In this document: one piece after another, positions 7,352 to 31,996 of the stretch
How positions within the stretch are numbered: the stretch's first letter is position 1
Layout: each line of letters starts with the position of its first letter
Source: Rhodococcus maanshanensis NBRC 100610
GTDB taxonomy: Bacteria; Actinomycetota; Actinomycetes; Mycobacteriales; Mycobacteriaceae
Direction: 5' to 3'
Length of the DNA stretch: 50,267 bases
Assembly (NCBI RefSeq): GCF_001894865.1
Contig: NZ_BCXA01000053.1
Span: 1 to 50,267, forward strand
Notes under the pieces: model-generated
Database searches by the model: none
The model's input: the letters and a program-made list of their open reading frames with translations, nothing else
Told to the model about the DNA's origin: nothing
Program-made: the position numbers and the translations under genes

Positions 7352-7387
7352 CTATGCTTGACGCAGATCACATCGGGCGGCGAGAGG

Positions 7388-8065
7388 GTGGATGCGACGG
7401 TGGCGGAGCCGGTGAGGCGTCGGCGCAGCGAGGCGCGGGCCAATCGGACGCGCATCATCGACGCCGCGATCGGCGCCTTCGCCGCCGATCCGGATGCGAG
7501 CATGGACGACGTCGCCCGCGCGGCAGGGGTGGTCCGCCGCACGGTCTACGCGCATTTCCCCAGCCGGGAGGCGCTCGTCGAGGGCATCGCGGACGAGGCG
7601 TCGGCCGCGCTGGTTGCGTCGTTCGGTGCGGACATCCCGCGGCCGGAACGTCCCGACCTCGCGCTCGCCGTGCTCGCGCTGCTGACCTGGCCGGTCGGCG
7701 ACCGGTTTCGGATGCTGCTGACCTTCGCGCGCAAGGAGCTCGGCGAGCAGCGGATGCTCGACCTGATGGAACCGGCGCGGGCGCCGACCATCGCCCTCGT
7801 CGAGCAGGGCCAGCGCGACGGGCTCTTCTCGTCGTACCTGCCGGCCGGGCTCCTGGTCGCGATGACCGAGGCCGTCACGATGACCCTGCTCGACCAGGCC
7901 AACAAGGGCGGCATCCGCGATTCCGGGGAGTCGTTCGGGGTCACCTCGCTTGTGCTGCTCGGGGTCCCGCCCGAGCGGGCGGCGGCGGTTGTCGAGGAGG
8001 CATGGGCGTGGATCCGCGACAGCGCAGGCCCTTCGGTGTCCACGGCTGGCCCTGACCGGCGGTAA
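7388..8065 (+). CDS. TetR/AcrR-family transcriptional regulator of the efflux pump
   Basis: A TetR-type repressor of about 225 residues. The N-terminal helix-turn-helix is clear (RTRIIDAAIGAFAADPD, then DDVARAAGVVRRTVYAHFPSRE); the ligand-binding C-terminus is hydrophobic and variable as usual. It is divergent from the DHA2 pump and reads two palindromes in between (7308-7323, 7334-7351). The start is uncertain: GTG at 7388 (MDATVAEPV) or GTG at 7400 (MAEPVRRRR); both follow a purine-rich stretch at about 7378-7387. An earlier in-frame start would run back through the palindromes and is unlikely. Confidence 0.88.
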   Translation: MDATVAEPVRRRRSEARANRTRIIDAAIGAFAADPDASMDDVARAAGVVRRTVYAHFPSREALVEGIADEASAALVASFGADIPRPERPDLALAVLALLTWPVGDRFRMLLTFARKELGEQRMLDLMEPARAPTIALVEQGQRDGLFSSYLPAGLLVAMTEAVTMTLLDQANKGGIRDSGESFGVTSLVLLGVPPERAAAVVEEAWAWIRDSAGPSVSTAGPDRR

Positions 8066-24825: not shown

Positions 24826-24894
24826 GCGGTCTGTTTGTCATGGTGCGACAGGGGTAGTTTCGGGTCACACGACGACGAAACGACAGGACGCTCG

Positions 24895-27249
24895 ATGTCG
24901 ACCTTGGTGAAGGAGAAGCCCGGGAATCTACCGGCGGAGCTGACCAGTTTCTTCGGCAGGCGACACGAGATCGCCGAGGCGAGGCGGCTGCTGGCGACCT
25001 CGCGGTTGGTGACGTTGGCCGGCATCGGTGGGGTCGGCAAGTCCAGGCTGGTGTTGCGGGTCGCCGAGGATTCGCGGCGAGCTTTCGCGGATGGGGTGTG
25101 GTTTGTCGCGCTCGGTGACCTGCAGGATTCCGAGTTGTTGGTGGAGACCGTCGCCGGGGCGCTCGGGCTGCCGGATCAGCCGGGCCTGTCGTTGGTTCGA
25201 CTGCTGACCGATCACCTCTCCACCCGGCACACATTGTTGGTCCTGGACAACTGCGAGCACCTCTTGGGTGCCGTCGCGGATTTGGCGCAGAACCTGTTGC
25301 GAGCGTGCCCGGAGCTGCGGATCCTGGCCACGAGCCGCGAGATCCTCGGGGTGGACGGTGAGCGGGTGCTGAAGGTGCCGCCTATGACGGCGCCCGAACC
25401 GCAGCAGACCCCGAAACTCGAGGCGATGCCCCGGTACGAGTCGGTGGCACTGTTCGTCGCGCGGGCCACCGACGCTCTGCCTGATTTCGTGCTCACCGAG
25501 GCCAATTGCGCTGCGGTGGCGGGGATCTGCCGCCAGCTGGACGGACTTCCCTTGGCCATCGAGCTGGCCGCGGTGCGGATCCGCGCGATGACCGCCGAGC
25601 AGATCCTGCAGCGCCTGACCGACCGCTATCAGCTGTTGACCGTCGGATCCCGGGTCGCACCGTCCCGACAGCAGACGTTGCGGTCCTGCGTGGACTGGAG
25701 CTACGAGCTGTGCGGGCCCGGTGAGCAGCAGCTGTGGGCGTGGCTGTCGGTTTTCGTGGGCGGTTTCGAGCTGGACGCGGCCGAGGGTATCTGTCCCGAG
25801 GAACTGGTCGACGGATTTCTCGACTCGGTGGCCTCCCTCGTCGACAAGTCGATCCTGGTTCGCCAGGAGTGCGGGGCGGTGGTGCGGTTCGGCATGGTCG
25901 AGACGATCGGTGCGTATGGCAGGGAGAAATTGCGCGAATCCGGCGATTACTCCAAAGCGCGGCGGCGGCACCTCGGGTGGTACGAGCGGTTGGTGAAGCG
26001 GGTCGAGATCGAGTGGATCGGCCCCGACCAGGCGGACTGGGTCGATCGATTCGATCGGGAGCAGCCGAACCTGCGGGAGGCGCTGACGTTCAGCATGACC
26101 GAATCGGTCATCGCCACCGACCCGGATGTCACCGCGCGCATGGCGAACGCCTTGTGGTTGTTCTGGTCGTGCCGGGGTCTGTTGACGGAGGCCAGGTATT
26201 GGATGGGCCGCTGCCTCACCGGCTCCGACACCGCGGGGGCCGAGGAACGCGTCAAGACGTTGTACGGCGACTGTTTGTTGGCGGGGATGCAGGTGCAACT
26301 CGAGGAGGCCGCGGCACTGGCGGTGGAATGCTGTTCGCTCGCAGAGCAATTGGGGCACGCGGAGTCGCTCGAGATCGCGAACTACGCGCGTGGATATCTG
26401 GCCTTGTTCACCGGAGACCTCGCCGCGGCGGTCGAACCGTTCCAGGCGGCCCTCGTCAGGGCACGTGCGGAGGGCTCCCACCCGACCGGGACCGGACTCC
26501 AGATCGCACGATCGATAGGCGGATTTCTCGGTCTTGCGATCGCGAGCGGACTTTCGGGGGACGAGGAGACCGCGATCGCCTGTCACGAGCAGGTGCTTGC
26601 GATCACCGCGCCGCGAGGTGAGTCCACCTACCGCGCGTGGGCATCGTGGGCCCTCGCGCTGACGGCATTGCAGGCAGGGGACACCGATCGGGCAACAGCC
26701 CTCCTGAAATCGGCGTTGCCGCTCCTCCGGCGCCTCAAAGACCTGGTCGTGGCGGGCTGGTGCCTGGAGTCGTTGGCCTGGGCCGCGATTCGCGAGGACC
26801 AGGCGACCCGGGCTGCCGTCCTGATGGGCGCCGCCGAGACGCTGGCGCAGACGGTCGGGAGGATCTCGGTGACCCTCCCGAACCTGCTCGGCAACCACGA
26901 CGAGTGCGAGCAACTCACCCGCAACGCACTCGGGGACAGGGCCTACGGTGAAGCATTTCGTACCGGTACCGCCATGAATCTCGACGAATCCGTGGCCTAC
27001 GCACTCGGGGAGAACCTCACCGACCAGCCCGAGCCCGCACCGGTGGCGTCACTGTTGACCCCGCGCGAAACCGAGGTCGCACGGCTGGTCGCGGCAGGCC
27101 ACACGAACAAGGCGATCGCCTCGATGCTGGTGATCTCTCCCCGCACCGCGCAGGGCCACGTCGAACACGTCCTGTCCAAGCTCGGGTTCACCTCGCGAAC
27201 CCAGATTGCCGCCTGGATTGCCGAGAACCAGCAGGATGGACAGCCCTGA
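24895..27249 (+). CDS. STAND/NB-ARC ATPase LuxR-family regulator, copy 1
   Basis: A 784-residue signal-transduction ATPase with a C-terminal LuxR helix-turn-helix. Order: Walker A GIGGVGKS at 43-50, Walker B LLVLDNCEH, sensor TSRE, GLPLAIELAA, then a winged-helix and a helical-repeat region (about 350-700), and at about 720-780 the HTH LTPRETEVARLVAAGHTNKAIASMLV. Such proteins switch between closed and open forms on nucleotide and ligand binding. Start ATG at 24895 with AGGAC upstream. It is clearly paralogous to 29660-31996; the N-terminal 70 residues match nearly position by position. Target genes are unknown; the secreted protein and the small peptide lie next to it. Confidence 0.9.
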   Translation: MSTLVKEKPGNLPAELTSFFGRRHEIAEARRLLATSRLVTLAGIGGVGKSRLVLRVAEDSRRAFADGVWFVALGDLQDSELLVETVAGALGLPDQPGLSLVRLLTDHLSTRHTLLVLDNCEHLLGAVADLAQNLLRACPELRILATSREILGVDGERVLKVPPMTAPEPQQTPKLEAMPRYESVALFVARATDALPDFVLTEANCAAVAGICRQLDGLPLAIELAAVRIRAMTAEQILQRLTDRYQLLTVGSRVAPSRQQTLRSCVDWSYELCGPGEQQLWAWLSVFVGGFELDAAEGICPEELVDGFLDSVASLVDKSILVRQECGAVVRFGMVETIGAYGREKLRESGDYSKARRRHLGWYERLVKRVEIEWIGPDQADWVDRFDREQPNLREALTFSMTESVIATDPDVTARMANALWLFWSCRGLLTEARYWMGRCLTGSDTAGAEERVKTLYGDCLLAGMQVQLEEAAALAVECCSLAEQLGHAESLEIANYARGYLALFTGDLAAAVEPFQAALVRARAEGSHPTGTGLQIARSIGGFLGLAIASGLSGDEETAIACHEQVLAITAPRGESTYRAWASWALALTALQAGDTDRATALLKSALPLLRRLKDLVVAGWCLESLAWAAIREDQATRAAVLMGAAETLAQTVGRISVTLPNLLGNHDECEQLTRNALGDRAYGEAFRTGTAMNLDESVAYALGENLTDQPEPAPVASLLTPRETEVARLVAAGHTNKAIASMLVISPRTAQGHVEHVLSKLGFTSRTQIAAWIAENQQDGQP

Positions 27250-27390: not shown

Positions 27391-28053
27391 TCAGGAGCCG
27401 AAGCCGGCGAGGAGCTTGCTGAGGCTGCCCGTTCCTCCGGTGCCGCCGGTGCCACCTGTGCCGCCGGTGCCACCTGTGCCGCCGGTGCCACCTGTGCCGC
27501 CCGTGCCGCCTGTGCTGGCCGGGGCGACGGTGATCGACGGGCCCTTGTTGCCGTAGTTGCCGCTGCCGAGTGATCCGGTGTAGTCCATGCCGGTGGTCAG
27601 GGGGGTACCGATGGGGCAGTTCGCGCCGACCTTGTAGGAGACGCTGTACTCCGGTGTGGCGTGGAAGCCCGGGCGATTCTGGACCACCCAGGAGATGATG
27701 CTCCAGGAGGAGTGGGCGTAGTCGGGTTTGACGTCGTCCGTGTCGGTCGGGGCCCCGCCCATCTTGGCGGAGCCGGGGATGTAGGTCAGGCAGGACGGGT
27801 GGCGGTCCGTGACGCTGTAGATGTACTCGTCTACCCAGCTGGTCCGGTCGAACTTCGTTGTCACGGTCACCGTGTCGCCCACCGTTGGGGTGGTGTTGCT
27901 GATGGTCCGGGTGAACTGGGACTTGCCGTCGTCCCAGGAGATCGAGCCGGGGGCCGCGCCTGCGGTGCCTGCGCCGAGGATGGCGAGCGCTCCGATGGAC
28001 AATGCGGCGGCCACGCCTGCGGCGACGCCGCGGGTGGTCTCTCGTTGTGTCAT
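27391..28053 (-). CDS. Secreted protein with Gly-Gly-Thr repeat tail
   Basis: A 220-residue exported protein. ATG at 28053 has GAAGGAA upstream. The signal peptide is residues 1 to about 33 (basic start TQRETTRGV, hydrophobic core AALSIGALAILGAG, cleavage TAGA/AP). The mature part (about 35-180) is rich in Ser, Thr, Tyr and Asp, like a beta-sandwich of a surface protein, with two Cys (HPSCLTYIP, GANCPIG) that could form a disulfide. Then come nine TGG triplets (about 182-209) and a short tail LSKLLAGFGS. I know no family for it. It is on the same strand as, and downstream of, the 25-residue peptide gene. Confidence 0.8.
   Translation of the reverse strand: MTQRETTRGVAAGVAAALSIGALAILGAGTAGAAPGSISWDDGKSQFTRTISNTTPTVGDTVTVTTKFDRTSWVDEYIYSVTDRHPSCLTYIPGSAKMGGAPTDTDDVKPDYAHSSWSIISWVVQNRPGFHATPEYSVSYKVGANCPIGTPLTTGMDYTGSLGSGNYGNKGPSITVAPASTGGTGGTGGTGGTGGTGGTGGTGGTGGTGSLSKLLAGFGS
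27441..27512. repeat. 18-bp tandem repeat encoding Gly-Gly-Thr run
   Basis: The unit TGCCGCCGGTGCCACCTG (plus strand) occurs three times exactly (27441, 27459, 27477) and a fourth time with two mismatches (27495). It codes for two Gly-Gly-Thr triplets per unit in the secreted protein and could change length by slippage or recombination. Confidence 0.9.
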
Positions 28054-28299
28054 GGCTGTTCCTTCGGTGGTTGGGAACGCGACCGTCGACATCGGCATGA
28101 GGGTCGCAGTGTTGGGCGTGGAGCCGTGTGCTCGGCGCGCGGCGGTCGCTGCGCCGAGCACACGGGGTCGAGGGGCGGGTGTCGATCACCCGGGTGCGGG
28201 AACCAGCTGCTGTTGTTGATGGCTCGGGTGATGGTGTCGCCGAGGACGTCGCCGGCGGCGTGGGTCATGAGCAGGGCGACCGCCTGAGCGGAGGGCGAA
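28054..28299. other. Non-coding stretch between secreted protein and peptide gene
   Basis: No gene supported. A minus-strand frame with an ATG at 28270 (MTHAAGDVLGDTITRAINNSS) has no ribosome binding site and runs into low-complexity sequence across the start of the secreted-protein gene. It could be a worn gene fragment. The promoter of the secreted-protein gene must lie here, but I cannot point to a clear -10/-35 pair. Confidence 0.4.
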
Positions 28300-28330
28300 G
28301 GGCCGGTGCTCCTCGGGAGAGCACCGGCCC
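28300..28330 (-). terminator. Terminator after the 25-residue peptide gene
   Basis: Perfect 12-base stem GGGCCGGTGCTC / GAGCACCGGCCC with a seven-base loop, 12 bases after the stop of the peptide gene on the minus strand. No T-run. Confidence 0.75.
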
Positions 28331-28342
28331 CGAACCGAGCCG

Positions 28343-28420
28343 TCAGCTCAGCGACTGCAGCAGGGTGCCGACCGCGCCGACCTTCCCGAGCACACCGAGG
28401 ACCGTGAGGAAAGTTGCCAT
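28343..28420 (-). CDS. 25-residue hydrophobic/amphipathic peptide
   Basis: A tiny open frame, MATFLTVLGVLG followed by KVGAVGTLLQSLS. An ideal ribosome binding site AAGGAGT stands five bases before the ATG at 28420. The gene is bracketed by a 20-base-arm leader hairpin (28445-28493) and a perfect 12-bp terminator stem (28300-28330), so it looks like a complete, independently transcribed gene rather than chance. The peptide has one charged residue (Lys13) apart from its termini; Leu, Val, Ala and Gly dominate, enough to make one amphipathic or membrane helix. It has no export signal of its own. Guesses by analogy only: small channel peptides of corynebacterial type (PorA/PorH), a leaderless bacteriocin, or a type I toxin-like membrane peptide. 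None is proven. Confidence 0.65.
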   Translation of the reverse strand: MATFLTVLGVLGKVGAVGTLLQSLS

Positions 28421-28444
28421 TGATCACTCCTTGAATCGAATTCT

Positions 28445-28493
28445 GAAATTTGTGCGGCCGCAACCAGGGGGCAGTTGCGGCCGCATAAATTTC
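28445..28493 (-). promoter_or_regulatory. Long leader hairpin of the peptide gene
   Basis: Twenty-base arms (28445-28464 and 28474-28493) that pair with a single mismatch around a nine-base loop. Each arm contains the ten-base palindrome TGCGGCCGCA. It ends 12 bases before the ribosome binding site of the peptide gene, so it should fold at the 5' end of that mRNA; it may protect the mRNA or act in attenuation. Confidence 0.7.
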
Positions 28494-28978
28494 TACCACG
28501 ACGTCGAGGCGTCATGTGTGTGAAATAGAAAGGGATTCGGTCTGGAGTTCTGTGTCGCCTCCAGAGGGGGCGCGATTCACCATGTGTTCACGGATTGTTT
28601 GCGTCGAGAGTTGCCATCGGTGCCCGTTGAAGAGTGCTGGATCCGGTAAATATGTGCAGCTCAAGGTCGTGATTGGTGCCGAGGAGTGAGTTGACGGGAT
28701 GGGTTGTCCAGGTATCGATGGCGTTGACTGTGGCCGATTCTAATTGAATTACAATGAGTCATTGTTTATTGGCGCGGTATTCTGGTTAATAATCTTCTGG
28801 GCATGCAAAATTGCCGCCCGTGCCGACCATATTTCGGGGGCGGTGTGTTCGATGGGGAGGTGTTCTTAAAATGGTTGAAGATGCGCACTTCTGTGCGAAT
28901 GGTGTCGGTTTGTGTTCGGTACCTCAGGTGGATTGTCGAATGTTGGACAGGTGTCGGGAAGCGAGTGCGGGCCGTCTG
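28494..28978. other. A/T-richer intergenic region
   Basis: About 485 bases visibly richer in A and T than the rest of the window (for example 28736-28800), with no gene I can support. It should hold the promoter of the peptide gene (minus strand; TAGAAA at about 28490-28495 is a weak -10 candidate). A plus-strand frame starting at 28811 or 28871 runs antisense into the next gene and is rejected. Confidence 0.5.
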
Positions 28979-29332
28979 TCAGTCGATGGGGAACGCTTGG
29001 TTGCAGTCGGCGCCGCAGGCGCAGAACACGGGATACCAGTCCCCGGAGGCCATGTGATCGAACTGCACGCGGACGTGCTGGTCCGAGCGAACCGCGATCT
29101 CGCCCTCGAGCCAGGTGCAGATCCAGGGGCCGTCGTCGAGTGCGACGACCGCGAGCAGGCTCGGCATCGGATCGCCGCAGCTGTCGGGTGACTCGCGATC
29201 GACCACCGTCCACGTGCGAATCTCCCCGAGTCCCGTCGACGGGACTCGCGGCAGGTCCTTGCCTCCGCAGACGTCGCAGGTGGTGCTCTCCAGGCTCAGT
29301 AGTGTCGCGCAGCGCGCGCAGTGCCTGATCAT
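28979..29332 (-). CDS. Zinc-ribbon/OB-fold protein (DUF35-like)
   Basis: A 117-residue protein: an N-terminal zinc ribbon (HCARCATLLSLESTTCDVCGG, CxxC...CxxC) followed by an OB-fold-like part (LGEIRTWTVVDRE, LLAVVALDDGPWICTWLEGE). DUF35 proteins usually partner thiolases or acyl-CoA enzymes, but no such gene is near. The C-terminus adds an unusual Cys-rich end (FCACGADCNQAF). ATG at 29332 is preferred to ATG at 29401, because GGAGG stands five bases before it and the zinc ribbon normally starts the protein. Confidence 0.75.
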   Translation of the reverse strand: MIRHCARCATLLSLESTTCDVCGGKDLPRVPSTGLGEIRTWTVVDRESPDSCGDPMPSLLAVVALDDGPWICTWLEGEIAVRSDQHVRVQFDHMASGDWYPVFCACGADCNQAFPID

Positions 29333-29659
29333 CAGCACCTCCGGCGCGTCGTCGCGGGGCGGTCGGTTTCCGGCCGTGGTGGGTCGTGTGAGCAAGAGCA
29401 TCGGAAAACCTCGACTTCACGCTGGGCAGATCTGACGAATTTCATACTTCGCTGGGGCTGTGTCGAGCACCACGGTGGGATGACGGGGGGACGTACCTGT
29501 TTACGGGCCGCGCTGTGACGGCACCTCCATCCGCGCGGCGGCGCACGGCGCCCTGACGTTACAGTTCACTCTAAAGTGTCAAGTCGGAGCCTCGCCGCAC
29601 GAGGCGGGTTCCGGCCGATATCGGTCGCGGCCCTGTGCCCGGGGAAGACGGGAGTGACG
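29333..29659. other. Intergenic region with divergent promoters
   Basis: Separates the DUF35-like gene from the second LuxR gene. No gene seen. An A/T-rich core near 29559-29585 (TTACAGTTCACTCTAAAGTG) contains a small inverted repeat CACT-CTAA-AGTG and, on the minus strand, TTGACA with TAACGT 15 bases on, a possible promoter toward the DUF35-like gene. Confidence 0.4.
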
Positions 29660-31996
29660 ATGCCGCCCACCGTCCCCGGCAAGGTGGCCGGGAACCTGCC
29701 GCTCGAGTTGAACACCTTCGTCGGCCGCCGCAACGAGACGGCCGAGTCGAGGCGACTGCTGTCCTCCTCGCGGCTGGTGACGCTGACCGGAATCGGCGGT
29801 GTCGGCAAGACGCGGCTTGCGCTGCGGGTGGCCGCCGATTCGAGACGAGACTTCGCGGACGGGGTGTGGCTCGTCGAGCTCGGTGACCTGCGCGATCCGG
29901 CCCTGCTGGCAGGCATGGTGGCCGCCACGCTCGCGCCGCGGAGCATCTCGAGCGAGCCACCGCTCGAGATGTTGGCTGGACACCTGCGAGATCGACGGCT
30001 GCTCCTCGTGATCGACAACTGTGAGCACGTGGTGGATGCGGTTGCTTCGCTGGCCGCGACGCTGTTGCGAAGCTGTCCGGGGCTGCGGATCCTGACGACC
30101 AGTCGCGAGGCCCTTGCTGTCGGCGGAGAAGCGGTGTTGCGAATCCCGTCGCTCGCGGTGCCCGACCCGGACGAGCCGCCGTCGCTGCAGGAGCTCTCCC
30201 GCTCCGAGGCGGTGACTCTGTTCCTCGACCGCGCCGCCGTTGCGGTCCCCGGTTTCGCGCTCACCGAGTACAATCGGGTGGCCGTGGCGCAGATCTGTCA
30301 CCGGCTGGACGGGCTCCCGCTCGCCATCGAACTGGCGGCGGTCCGGCTGCGGACACTGTCGGCCGACCAGATCCTCGACCGGCTGTCCGATCGGTATCAG
30401 CTGCTCACGGGTGGCCGCAGGGGAGCGCCGAGCAGGCAGCAAACGCTCAGGTTGTGCATCGAGTGGAGCCGCGAACTGTGCACCGAAACCGAACGTGAGC
30501 TGTGGGGTCGGTTGACGATCTTCTCGGGCGGGTTCGAACTCGATGCAGCGGAAGGGATCTGCGCAGGCGATCGGCCGACAGGCGAGGTGCTCGACGTGCT
30601 GGCTTCGCTCGTCGACAAGTCGATCCTGATCTGTGAAGGCGCGGGGGCGGTGGTGCGATACCGGATGCTCGAGACCCTCCGCGAATATGGCCGCGAGGAG
30701 TTGCTCGCCCCGGATGACCTCCCGATCCTCCGTCGACGGCACCTGAACTGGTACCGGGATCTGGTCTCGACGACGAGATTCGAGTGGATCGGTCCCCGCC
30801 AGGTCGAGCTCATGGCGCGACTTGGGCGCGAGCAGACGAACCTGCGAGAAGCGATGCACCACTGCATGAGCGAGCCGGACGAGGCCGAGATCGCCCTGCA
30901 GATCTCCGTCGCGCTGTTCCCGTTCTGGCTCTCCCGTGGTCAACTCCGCGAGGGCAGATACTGGCTCGACTGCGCGCTGGACCTGCACGGGGACGAACCG
31001 ACCGCCGACAGGGTCAAGGCGCTGTGTGCGAACAGCCTCCTCGCCGGGTATCAGGGCGACACCGCGTCTGCGACCGCGTTGGCTGCGGCGGCACACGACC
31101 TCGCGGAGCGGCTGGACGACGACGCGTTGCGTGCGGCCGTCATGCATGCGAACGCGTACCTCGCCGCCTTCGCCGGGGACCTGCCCGGGGCCGTGGCCGG
31201 ATGGGCGGATGCCCTCTCGGCCTTCCGGGACCAGGGGAACAATCTCAGGCAGATCTCGACATTGCTCGGGCTCACCCTGGCAGCTGGGCTGCTCGGCGAC
31301 GCCGCCGGGGCGGTCGGGTACCAGGAAGAAGCCCTTTCCATCAGCGAACGAACCGGCGAGTTCGTCTACCGGGCATACGCGGCATGCGCCCTGGGACTCG
31401 CGCTGTGGGAGGCCGATCCACCGCGCGCGGCCGGCCTCCTGGAACAGGGCCTGCGACTGTCCCGATCGGCGGACGACATGCTCGCGGCCGCGATGTGCGT
31501 CGAGACGCTGGCGTGGATCGCGTGTGCGGCGAATCATGCCCGACGTGCCGCGCTGTTGCTCGGCGCGGTGGAGACGATGTGGCGAACGGTCGGTAGCCCC
31601 GGGGTGGTTGCCAGGACGCTGCAGGCGTACCACGCAGAATGCGAGCAGCAGACCCGTCGGGTCCTCGGTGACCGGGTCTTCGAGGGGGCCGTCCGAGAAG
31701 GGGCAGGGTGGGGCCCTGAGGAGGCGATCGCGTTCGCGCTCGACGAGCTCTCCGAGGCCGAGGAGGAGCGGCGGTCCCCTGGGCCGGCATCGGTGCTGAC
31801 GCAGCGTGAGCGGCAGGTCGCCGAGCTCGTGGCTCAGGGCCTGACCAACAAGGCGATCGCTGCGCAGCTCCTGATCTCCCAGCGCACCGTGCAGGGACAC
31901 GTCGAGCAGATCCTCGCGAAGCTCGGATTCGCGTCCCGGATCCAGGTCGCGGCGTGGATCGTCGAGCAGGGACTGGGCAGCCGGTCGGTGAGCTGA
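29660..31996 (+). CDS. STAND/NB-ARC ATPase LuxR-family regulator, copy 2
   Basis: A 778-residue paralogue of the regulator at 24895. Walker A GIGGVGKT near residue 50, Walker B LLLVIDNCEH, TTSREAL, GLPLAIELAA, a winged-helix plus helical-repeat middle, and the LuxR HTH LTQRERQVAELVAQGLTNKAIAAQLL at about 712-765. ATG at 29660 is chosen since GGGAG stands six bases upstream and the alignment with copy 1 begins at KVAGNLPLELNTFVGRR; an earlier frame start at 29576 adds unlike residues. The ligand is unknown; proximity suggests it may control the island genes. Confidence 0.9.
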   Translation: MPPTVPGKVAGNLPLELNTFVGRRNETAESRRLLSSSRLVTLTGIGGVGKTRLALRVAADSRRDFADGVWLVELGDLRDPALLAGMVAATLAPRSISSEPPLEMLAGHLRDRRLLLVIDNCEHVVDAVASLAATLLRSCPGLRILTTSREALAVGGEAVLRIPSLAVPDPDEPPSLQELSRSEAVTLFLDRAAVAVPGFALTEYNRVAVAQICHRLDGLPLAIELAAVRLRTLSADQILDRLSDRYQLLTGGRRGAPSRQQTLRLCIEWSRELCTETERELWGRLTIFSGGFELDAAEGICAGDRPTGEVLDVLASLVDKSILICEGAGAVVRYRMLETLREYGREELLAPDDLPILRRRHLNWYRDLVSTTRFEWIGPRQVELMARLGREQTNLREAMHHCMSEPDEAEIALQISVALFPFWLSRGQLREGRYWLDCALDLHGDEPTADRVKALCANSLLAGYQGDTASATALAAAAHDLAERLDDDALRAAVMHANAYLAAFAGDLPGAVAGWADALSAFRDQGNNLRQISTLLGLTLAAGLLGDAAGAVGYQEEALSISERTGEFVYRAYAACALGLALWEADPPRAAGLLEQGLRLSRSADDMLAAAMCVETLAWIACAANHARRAALLLGAVETMWRTVGSPGVVARTLQAYHAECEQQTRRVLGDRVFEGAVREGAGWGPEEAIAFALDELSEAEEERRSPGPASVLTQRERQVAELVAQGLTNKAIAAQLLISQRTVQGHVEQILAKLGFASRIQVAAWIVEQGLGSRSVS

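Follow-up and report, generated by a model that had tools for sequence, protein, structure and literature searches.

Corynebacterium species encode short channel peptides, among them PorH/PorA and PorACj/PorACur, which are leaderless amphipathic helices of 37-57 residues and are made from small genes of their own. According to the excerpts of the literature cited here, PorA, PorH (57 residues) and ProtX lack signal sequences (PMC12632848), and Ser56 of PorH and Ser37 of the 38-residue ProtX are mycoloylated (PMC5310785). PorA/PorH-type genes are described between the GroEL2 and PPK2 genes, and the smallest pore former claimed there has 37 residues (PMC5944148). PorA is modified at Ser15, so a C-terminal serine is not universal among O-mycoloylated peptides. 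ProtX (Cgp_2875/cg2875) is a very short protein of the mycolate bacterium Corynebacterium glutamicum, which is predicted to be helical and has serines at its extreme C terminus (PMC5310785, PMC9671496, excerpts). In C. glutamicum, such peptides are reported to form pores, carry mycolates and appear tied to the cell wall, and ProtX probably serves as a phage receptor (PMC12632848, PMC9671496, excerpts); their route across the inner membrane is, in the same excerpts, not known (PMC12632848). The characterized channels of two Rhodococcus species, as excerpted from PMC9233653, are the MspA-like porins PorARc, PorARr and PorBRr, which act as cell-wall channels and, unlike the peptides described here, have about 200 residues or more and signal peptides.

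Here, we describe a gene for a 25-residue peptide that belongs to an unannotated family of 25-28 residues in Rhodococcus-like bacteria. It lies in the window, the whole stretch of 50,267 nucleotides that was analyzed, which is contig C53 of a 5.67-Mb genome. In the following sections, we compare this locus with its relatives and with the systems above.

A short gene with its own leader and terminator-like structures

The gene is encoded on the minus strand and comprises the following elements.

28489-28498, minus strand: extended -10-like motif TGGTAGAAAT (TGnTA pattern), 78 nt ahead of the ATG
28445-28493, minus strand: 5' leader stem-loop with 20-nt arms (28445-28464 and 28474-28493; 95% complementary, both with TGCGGCCGCA) and a 9-nt loop, z -4.7
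28432-28426, minus strand: ribosome-binding site AAGGAGT, 5 bases from the ATG at 28420
28343-28420, minus strand: peptide gene of 25 codons plus TGA, MATFLTVLGVLGKVGAVGTLLQSLS, with its ATG at 28420
28300-28330, minus strand: terminator-like 12-bp stem-loop (28300-28311 with 28319-28330) without a T run, z -3.0

An earlier note on this DNA had read from the letters a binding site five bases ahead of the ATG, a 25-codon frame, a 20-base-arm hairpin ending 12 bases before the binding site and a perfect 12-bp stem 12 bases past the stop; all four are present and correct to the base. The note had also put the gene inside an A/T-richer patch. A patch of low GC content exists (500-base windows between 28250 and 29249 range from 0.53 to 0.60), but it lies mainly upstream of the gene. 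The RNA of positions 28290-28499 has a fold of -101 kcal/mol (z -3.9), which none of 200 shuffles equalled. Taken alone, a frame of 25 codons behind a ribosome site arises easily; the locus is more than chance because relatives keep the start, length, ending and stop. This comparison backs the proposal of a complete short gene with a leader structure and its own terminator, and the ribosome-site sequence CAAGGAG is unchanged in all six sequences from the window's genus.

Relatives in three genera

Matches were accepted as real when they combined a short frame, a ribosome site and a stem past the stop. The relatives read in this way come from three genera and 20 genomes; their 25 loci encode 22 distinct peptides of 25-28 residues. 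Members occur in three of six genomes of the window's genus, in 12 of 14 of a second genus and in five of a third. They were found only in the mycolate-bearing bacterial family, within which nearly all of the searching was done.

A search of 101 genomes with the window's peptide returned a 44% paralogue in the same genome and, in R. oryzae, relatives at 72% and 48%. These first four copies share 25 codons, the start ATGG, the TCGCTGAGCTGA end, CAAGGAG and the leader hairpin, in which two pairs have changed on both sides. Two further peptides of 25 residues, MGNLSAAIDAVTAIISAIKTLGSLS from the window's genome and MATLSATINTIATVLEIFKTLQSLS from G002, are encoded upstream of relatives of a secreted gene termed gene A; most of the 30 loci of this kind that were read have no such peptide upstream of gene A. 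A six-row profile led to MGSFTTLSAVIDSVKTIMAIIQQLSSLS in the second genus (E 0.037, in a 29-residue open frame), and a peptide gene of this type was present in 10 of the 14 genomes of that genus. With a 17-row profile, matches arose in 21 of 301 genomes, 20 of them real by reading and one (G011) inside long frames. Single-sequence and four-row profile searches missed the second and third genera. An empty result from a narrow profile means little, since the narrow search gave 0 of 28 in the third genus, where the wider profile later found five.

Searches by other routes returned few loci. A covariance model of the hairpin (R1), run on 401 genomes, gave matches at E <= 0.1 in nine of them and real loci in G000 and G003 only; three further matches in these two genomes are the opposite strand of the same hairpins, and those in the seven other genomes are stems without a matching peptide. 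One scan of a named genome collection, with patterns from the four-row alignment, gave 12 matches and two confirmed loci, both in R. oryzae. None of 521 pattern matches in viral contigs was confirmed, phages and plasmids held no peptide match, and gene A was likewise not matched in plasmids. Matches inside long frames were rejected as chance (355 residues in G101, 863 in G396, 186 in G106, 328 in G433 and G366, 661 in G246, 668 in G219, 156 and 141 in G011), and loci L093, L095 and L098 were read alongside them. Weak matches of the early single-sequence and narrow-profile searches, also inside long frames, were dropped in the same way. In the open-licence PMC literature, the letters of the peptides appear in no paper, and among the papers listed none was recognized as describing the family.

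Two genomes of the second genus have a second, diverged copy of the MDIVTTLSAVINVVSTVLKLINMVSTLS type about 4.4 kb from the first (L137 of G232, about 7820 and 12180; L132 of G117). Upstream of gene A, L046 and L047 (G004 and G101) contain probable decayed copies, of which that in G004 retains the MQSLS end without a start, and that in G101 has an altered frame ending in FFR. Both were excluded from all counts.

Selection on the encoded peptide

In the second genus, the peptide frame is coding. Nine of ten orthologues, the tenth being one codon shorter and outside the test, give a pN/pS of 0.465 against a mean of 1.25 for shuffles of the alignment columns, with 6 of 500 shuffles at or below the observed value; 348 of the 500 contain stops. 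Variable columns are distributed 12/2/10 over the three codon positions. The substitution test fails to reach significance when confined to the window's clade, which offers too few sequences (p 0.16 and 0.18 for the two orthologous pairs; 0.010 to 0.55 over all 15 pairs of six sequences). Synonymous changes preserve the SLS end across the family (TCG CTG AGC, TCG CTC AGC and TCC CTC AGC). The earlier note had named stems preserved around randomly changing codons as the pattern that would speak against a gene. The opposite was seen: all 25 loci, from 20 genomes, retain the frame, the length and the ending, and the pN/pS of 0.47 in the best-sampled group argues against random codons.

RNA elements

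The members share a recurring layout, which consists of TGnTA, a stem-loop that is weak in some, a ribosome site, the short frame and a GC-rich terminator stem. Folding was analyzed for 23 members (L129 was left out, and L126 remained unmatched through a one-residue difference). TGnTA stands upstream of the start in all 23, at 56-97 bases, against a chance rate of about 0.2 per region in shuffles of nine representative regions, for a pattern that was picked after the sequences had been viewed. At the locus itself, a consensus scan found no TTGACA/TATAAT promoter. Transcription is predicted to start near the foot of the hairpin, with TGGTAGAAAT as the putative promoter motif.

The leader hairpin has 97% of its cells paired in four sequences, with two two-sided changes, and 25 of 500 shuffles score as high; covariation is thus modest and comes from four sequences only. 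The 5' segment, taken after TGnTA by a cut that may trim a stem, folds with z -3.7 to -4.7 in the window's clade, -3.3 in G222 and -3.5 to -3.7 in the third genus. It is weak in G000:C8 (z -1.7) and no better than shuffles in G002 (z +0.5); the remaining copies of the second genus are unremarkable (z +0.2 to -2.5). A 5' stem is well supported in the window's clade and no more than suggestive for the family as a whole.

The 3' stem is more uniform, with z -2.2 to -10.5 in 22 of the 23 members; the sole exception, G000:C11, has no terminator stem (z -0.1). Across 12 sequences of the second genus, the stem covaries, with 99.3% of cells paired and 14 two-sided changes versus 5.0 in shuffles, a number reached in none of 500. 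A scan for terminators with a T run found none at the window locus, and no T run follows its 3' stem. Third-genus copies such as L135 of G124 (7386-7469, minus strand) have a longer leader, with the motif 97 bases before the start, and there the terminator stem is followed by a T run, contrary to the other genera.

Properties of the peptides

Serine is the C-terminal residue in all 22 distinct peptides. The Eisenberg moment peaks at 105-110 degrees (range 85-115) in all 23 members, with a shuffle p <= 0.015 in 19; the remaining four share a single 27-residue sequence, for which p is 0.085-0.115. The window's peptide has almost no moment at exactly 100 degrees (0.06), and the amphipathicity signal therefore depends on allowing 85-115 degrees. 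By direct reading, polar residues form a stripe at about every third position. The helical periodicity persists in members that are only 20-36% identical to the window's peptide. The 23 members carry a net charge of -1 to +1, and the six from the window's genus have GRAVY values of 0.91-1.41. The peptides are probably leaderless, as a frame of 25 residues is too small for a leader and a mature protein.

Gene neighbourhood

The peptide gene is surrounded by the following features.

24835-27249 and 29576-31996: two LuxR-type regulators flanking the locus (domain test on the second only)
27391-28053, minus strand: secreted DUF11-like protein B with a Gly-Gly-Thr repeat tail, now the next gene downstream
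28199-28252, minus strand: remnant of secreted gene A (last codons, GDVLGDTITRAINNSS), its body deleted
28979-29401, minus strand: OB-fold/zinc-ribbon protein (OB_ChsH2_C), upstream of the peptide gene

Protein B matches TIGR01451 with E 8.9e-5 and 22.4 bits, under the cut-off of 24. The OB-fold/zinc-ribbon gene is syntenic in R. oryzae and has 80% identity in G003. The two large LuxR-type regulators look paralogous, and by eye they are adjacent on one flank in R. oryzae (L027 1-3790).

In the other three first-found loci, the peptide gene is followed by secreted gene A (MSSNTVRR...) and then by a B-like protein. The window has lost most of gene A. Positions 28050-28252, from the end of gene A onward, match L027 5944-6146 at 83% identity, and positions 28300-28345, at the peptide terminator, match L027 5076-5121 at 93%; the blocks are about 822 bases apart in R. 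oryzae and 47 in the window (scar region 28199-28299). The peptide gene beside this deletion is intact. The stop of the gene A remnant is altered, reading TAG in R. oryzae and TGG in the window.

Relatives of gene A occur in 69 of 301 genomes. The family (L043-L072; L027:5274-5993) is secreted, and many members end in SSTGSxSDVLGDTITRVLxNGS, a tail that looks like a surface-anchoring amphipathic helix; the copy that was scanned has no Pfam or NCBIfam family at cut-off. Partner genes of the peptide in the window's genus encode secreted surface-type proteins. The second and third genera contribute 17 peptide-bearing genomes; in all of them, the gene A-like matches, taken as the best candidates listed per genome, lie on a different contig from the peptide gene or at a distance of more than 100 kb. 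Four neighbourhoods from these genera, read by eye, all contain a MarR-type regulator gene. In G202, the peptide gene directly adjoins a gene for a Bcr/CflA-type transporter; such a gene lies beside one of the two G232 copies and about 2 kb off in G124, and was not seen in G222.

Comparison with known families

The earlier note's remark that no known family comes to mind agrees with the library scans: for 17 of the 22 distinct peptides (the five last-found members were outside the scans), Pfam, NCBIfam, PHROGs, PADLOC and the PDB sequences gave no significant match, and the best library E was 0.029, for one member and an unrelated family. Rfam returned nothing over threshold, with two sub-threshold chance matches and no antitoxin.

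The only weak matches that recur are to phenol-soluble modulins. The delta type was matched by four of 17 members in Pfam (PF19693, best E 0.059) and by five of 17 in NCBIfam (NF033392, best E 0.052), and the alpha type by one of 17 (E 0.087); none of the 17 reaches E 0.001. Phenol-soluble modulins of the delta type are short amphipathic helices without a leader. Their sequence similarity to our peptides is weak and not significant, and we know of no terminal-serine rule for them.

Among the comparisons that the earlier note had suggested, channel peptides of mycolate bacteria fit best, though only in the sense of working alike; bacteriocins and type I toxins fit in size and hydrophobicity and gained no further positive support. 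PorA/PorH candidates were collected by a PPK2 search in 25 genomes of presumed Corynebacterium, in which the short frames beside PPK2 were read. Five of 30 PPK2 loci (L163-L167) hold PorA-like peptides and four of these also PorH-like ones, named by position and size after the excerpted description in PMC5944148 and unannotated in the genomes. Comparison by hhalign gave probabilities of 0.65%, 0.24% and 0.40% and hence no homology. As read from the frames, the window's copy and the copies with listed neighbourhoods are surrounded by genes other than those of the GroEL2-PPK2 setting. The moment tests agree with a leaderless amphipathic helix as in PorA/PorH-type porins, and the PorA candidates from five related genomes peak at a similar angle of 100-110 degrees. 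Our peptides have 25-28 residues and are thus shorter than the Corynebacterium channel peptides, and a pore role is proposed for them by analogy.

ProtX is closest in kind to the peptide family. It is modified at the penultimate residue, Ser37 of 38, whereas our peptides have serine as the last residue (ProtX site from excerpts of PMC5310785). With a partial ProtX query (30 of the 38 residues, taken from published primers), a shuffle test of 11 peptides gave uncorrected p values of 0.011, 0.021 and 0.043 for three of them; the window's copy had p 0.45. The similarity to ProtX is marginal for these three peptides and absent for the window's copy.

Discussion

We see about an even chance that the gene encodes a leaderless amphipathic helical peptide of the mycomembrane, which would act like PorA, PorH and ProtX and would probably be lipidated at its terminal serine. 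In this model, a short mRNA would begin at the base of the 5' stem-loop, a structure that may stabilize it; ompA is a comparison for mRNA stabilization by a 5' stem. Judging from its sequence, the strong ribosome site would drive translation, and the mRNA would end at the GC-rich stem, as the conservation of this structure in the sister genus suggests. The 25-residue product would fold into a single helix, hydrophobic on one face and carrying a stripe of small polar residues, a fold to which the computed periodicity points. It would leave the cell without a signal peptide, presumably by the route that PorA, PorH and ProtX take, may gain a mycolate on its invariant C-terminal serine, and could insert in the mycomembrane as an anchor or an oligomeric pore. 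The C-terminal serine is a candidate O-mycoloylation site that resembles Ser56 of PorH and Ser37 of ProtX. More tentatively, and with rather less than an even chance, these could be the smallest known O-mycoloylated mycomembrane peptides, with 25-28 residues and a mycolate on the terminal serine, serving Rhodococcus as pores, or as anchors and phage receptors; they might oligomerize through the small polar stripe and function alongside the larger MspA-like porins.

The mycomembrane reading is supported by a family that is real, coding in its best-sampled genus and of helical periodicity, by a predicted stand-alone transcript with a conserved terminator stem, by the terminal serine, by secreted surface-type partner genes in the window's genus and by the similar moment angle of the PorA candidates. 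We count it weaker because there is no PorA/PorH homology, similarity to ProtX is marginal and 25 residues are well below 37; because the recurring weak library matches are phenol-soluble modulins and not porins; because the characterized channels of two Rhodococcus species are MspA-like in the excerpts of PMC9233653; and because the window's clade, taken alone, shows no significant coding selection and the moment of the window's peptide is 0.06 at 100 degrees.

The main rival, which we consider unlikely, is a secreted surface-active or antimicrobial peptide like the phenol-soluble modulins, an N-formylated amphipathic helix that would alter wetting, spreading or neighbouring cells. Length, absent leader and amphipathic helix agree with it, as do the sole recurring weak library matches, to the delta type with one to the alpha type, and the Bcr/CflA-type transporter near the gene in G202, G232 and G124 is a putative exporter. 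Yet every one of these library matches is far from significance, the net charge stays within -1 to +1, no dedicated peptide exporter or immunity gene was seen by eye beside the listed loci, and the invariant C-terminal serine is left without explanation. Ranking behind it, and improbable, is a hydrophobic peptide of the cytoplasmic membrane, either type I toxin-like or a regulator of a membrane protein. Short, hydrophobic members with the GRAVY values given above, strongly structured mRNA ends and a transporter-like gene nearby in three of four neighbourhoods from the other genera would suit such a peptide; the polar stripe on the helix, the lack of an antitoxin match in Rfam and neighbours that vary by genus, from surface proteins to transporter- or regulator-like genes, do not.

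That the peptide is a leader or attenuator of the downstream surface-protein gene A is very improbable. At five of six loci in the window's genus, the peptide starts 195-275 nt before the gene A start, and in four of those a terminator-like stem lies between the two, but this position is not constant: going by the best candidates listed per genome, the peptide is away from gene A in all 17 peptide-bearing genomes of the second and third genera, and the window keeps it intact with the downstream gene A mostly deleted, which counts against a leader role. G000:C11 lacks the terminator stem (z -0.1), the peptide has no run of a single amino acid, and selection acts on amino acids. This last point also bears on the least credible alternative, a structured RNA or operator in which the open frame arose by chance. 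The conserved stems and the non-significant coding test in the window's clade alone would allow it; against it, frame, length and ending persist where the sequence of the 5' stem is wholly different, pN/pS is 0.47, and the helical periodicity is retained at only 20-36% identity to the window's peptide.

Within excerpts of the open-licence PMC literature, we found no report of protein mycoloylation in Rhodococcus. The small outer-membrane proteins of mycolate bacteria are largely unmapped, probably in part because genes so short miss annotation. A conserved family of 25-residue peptides would offer a minimal substrate for studying the export and lipidation of leaderless peptides.
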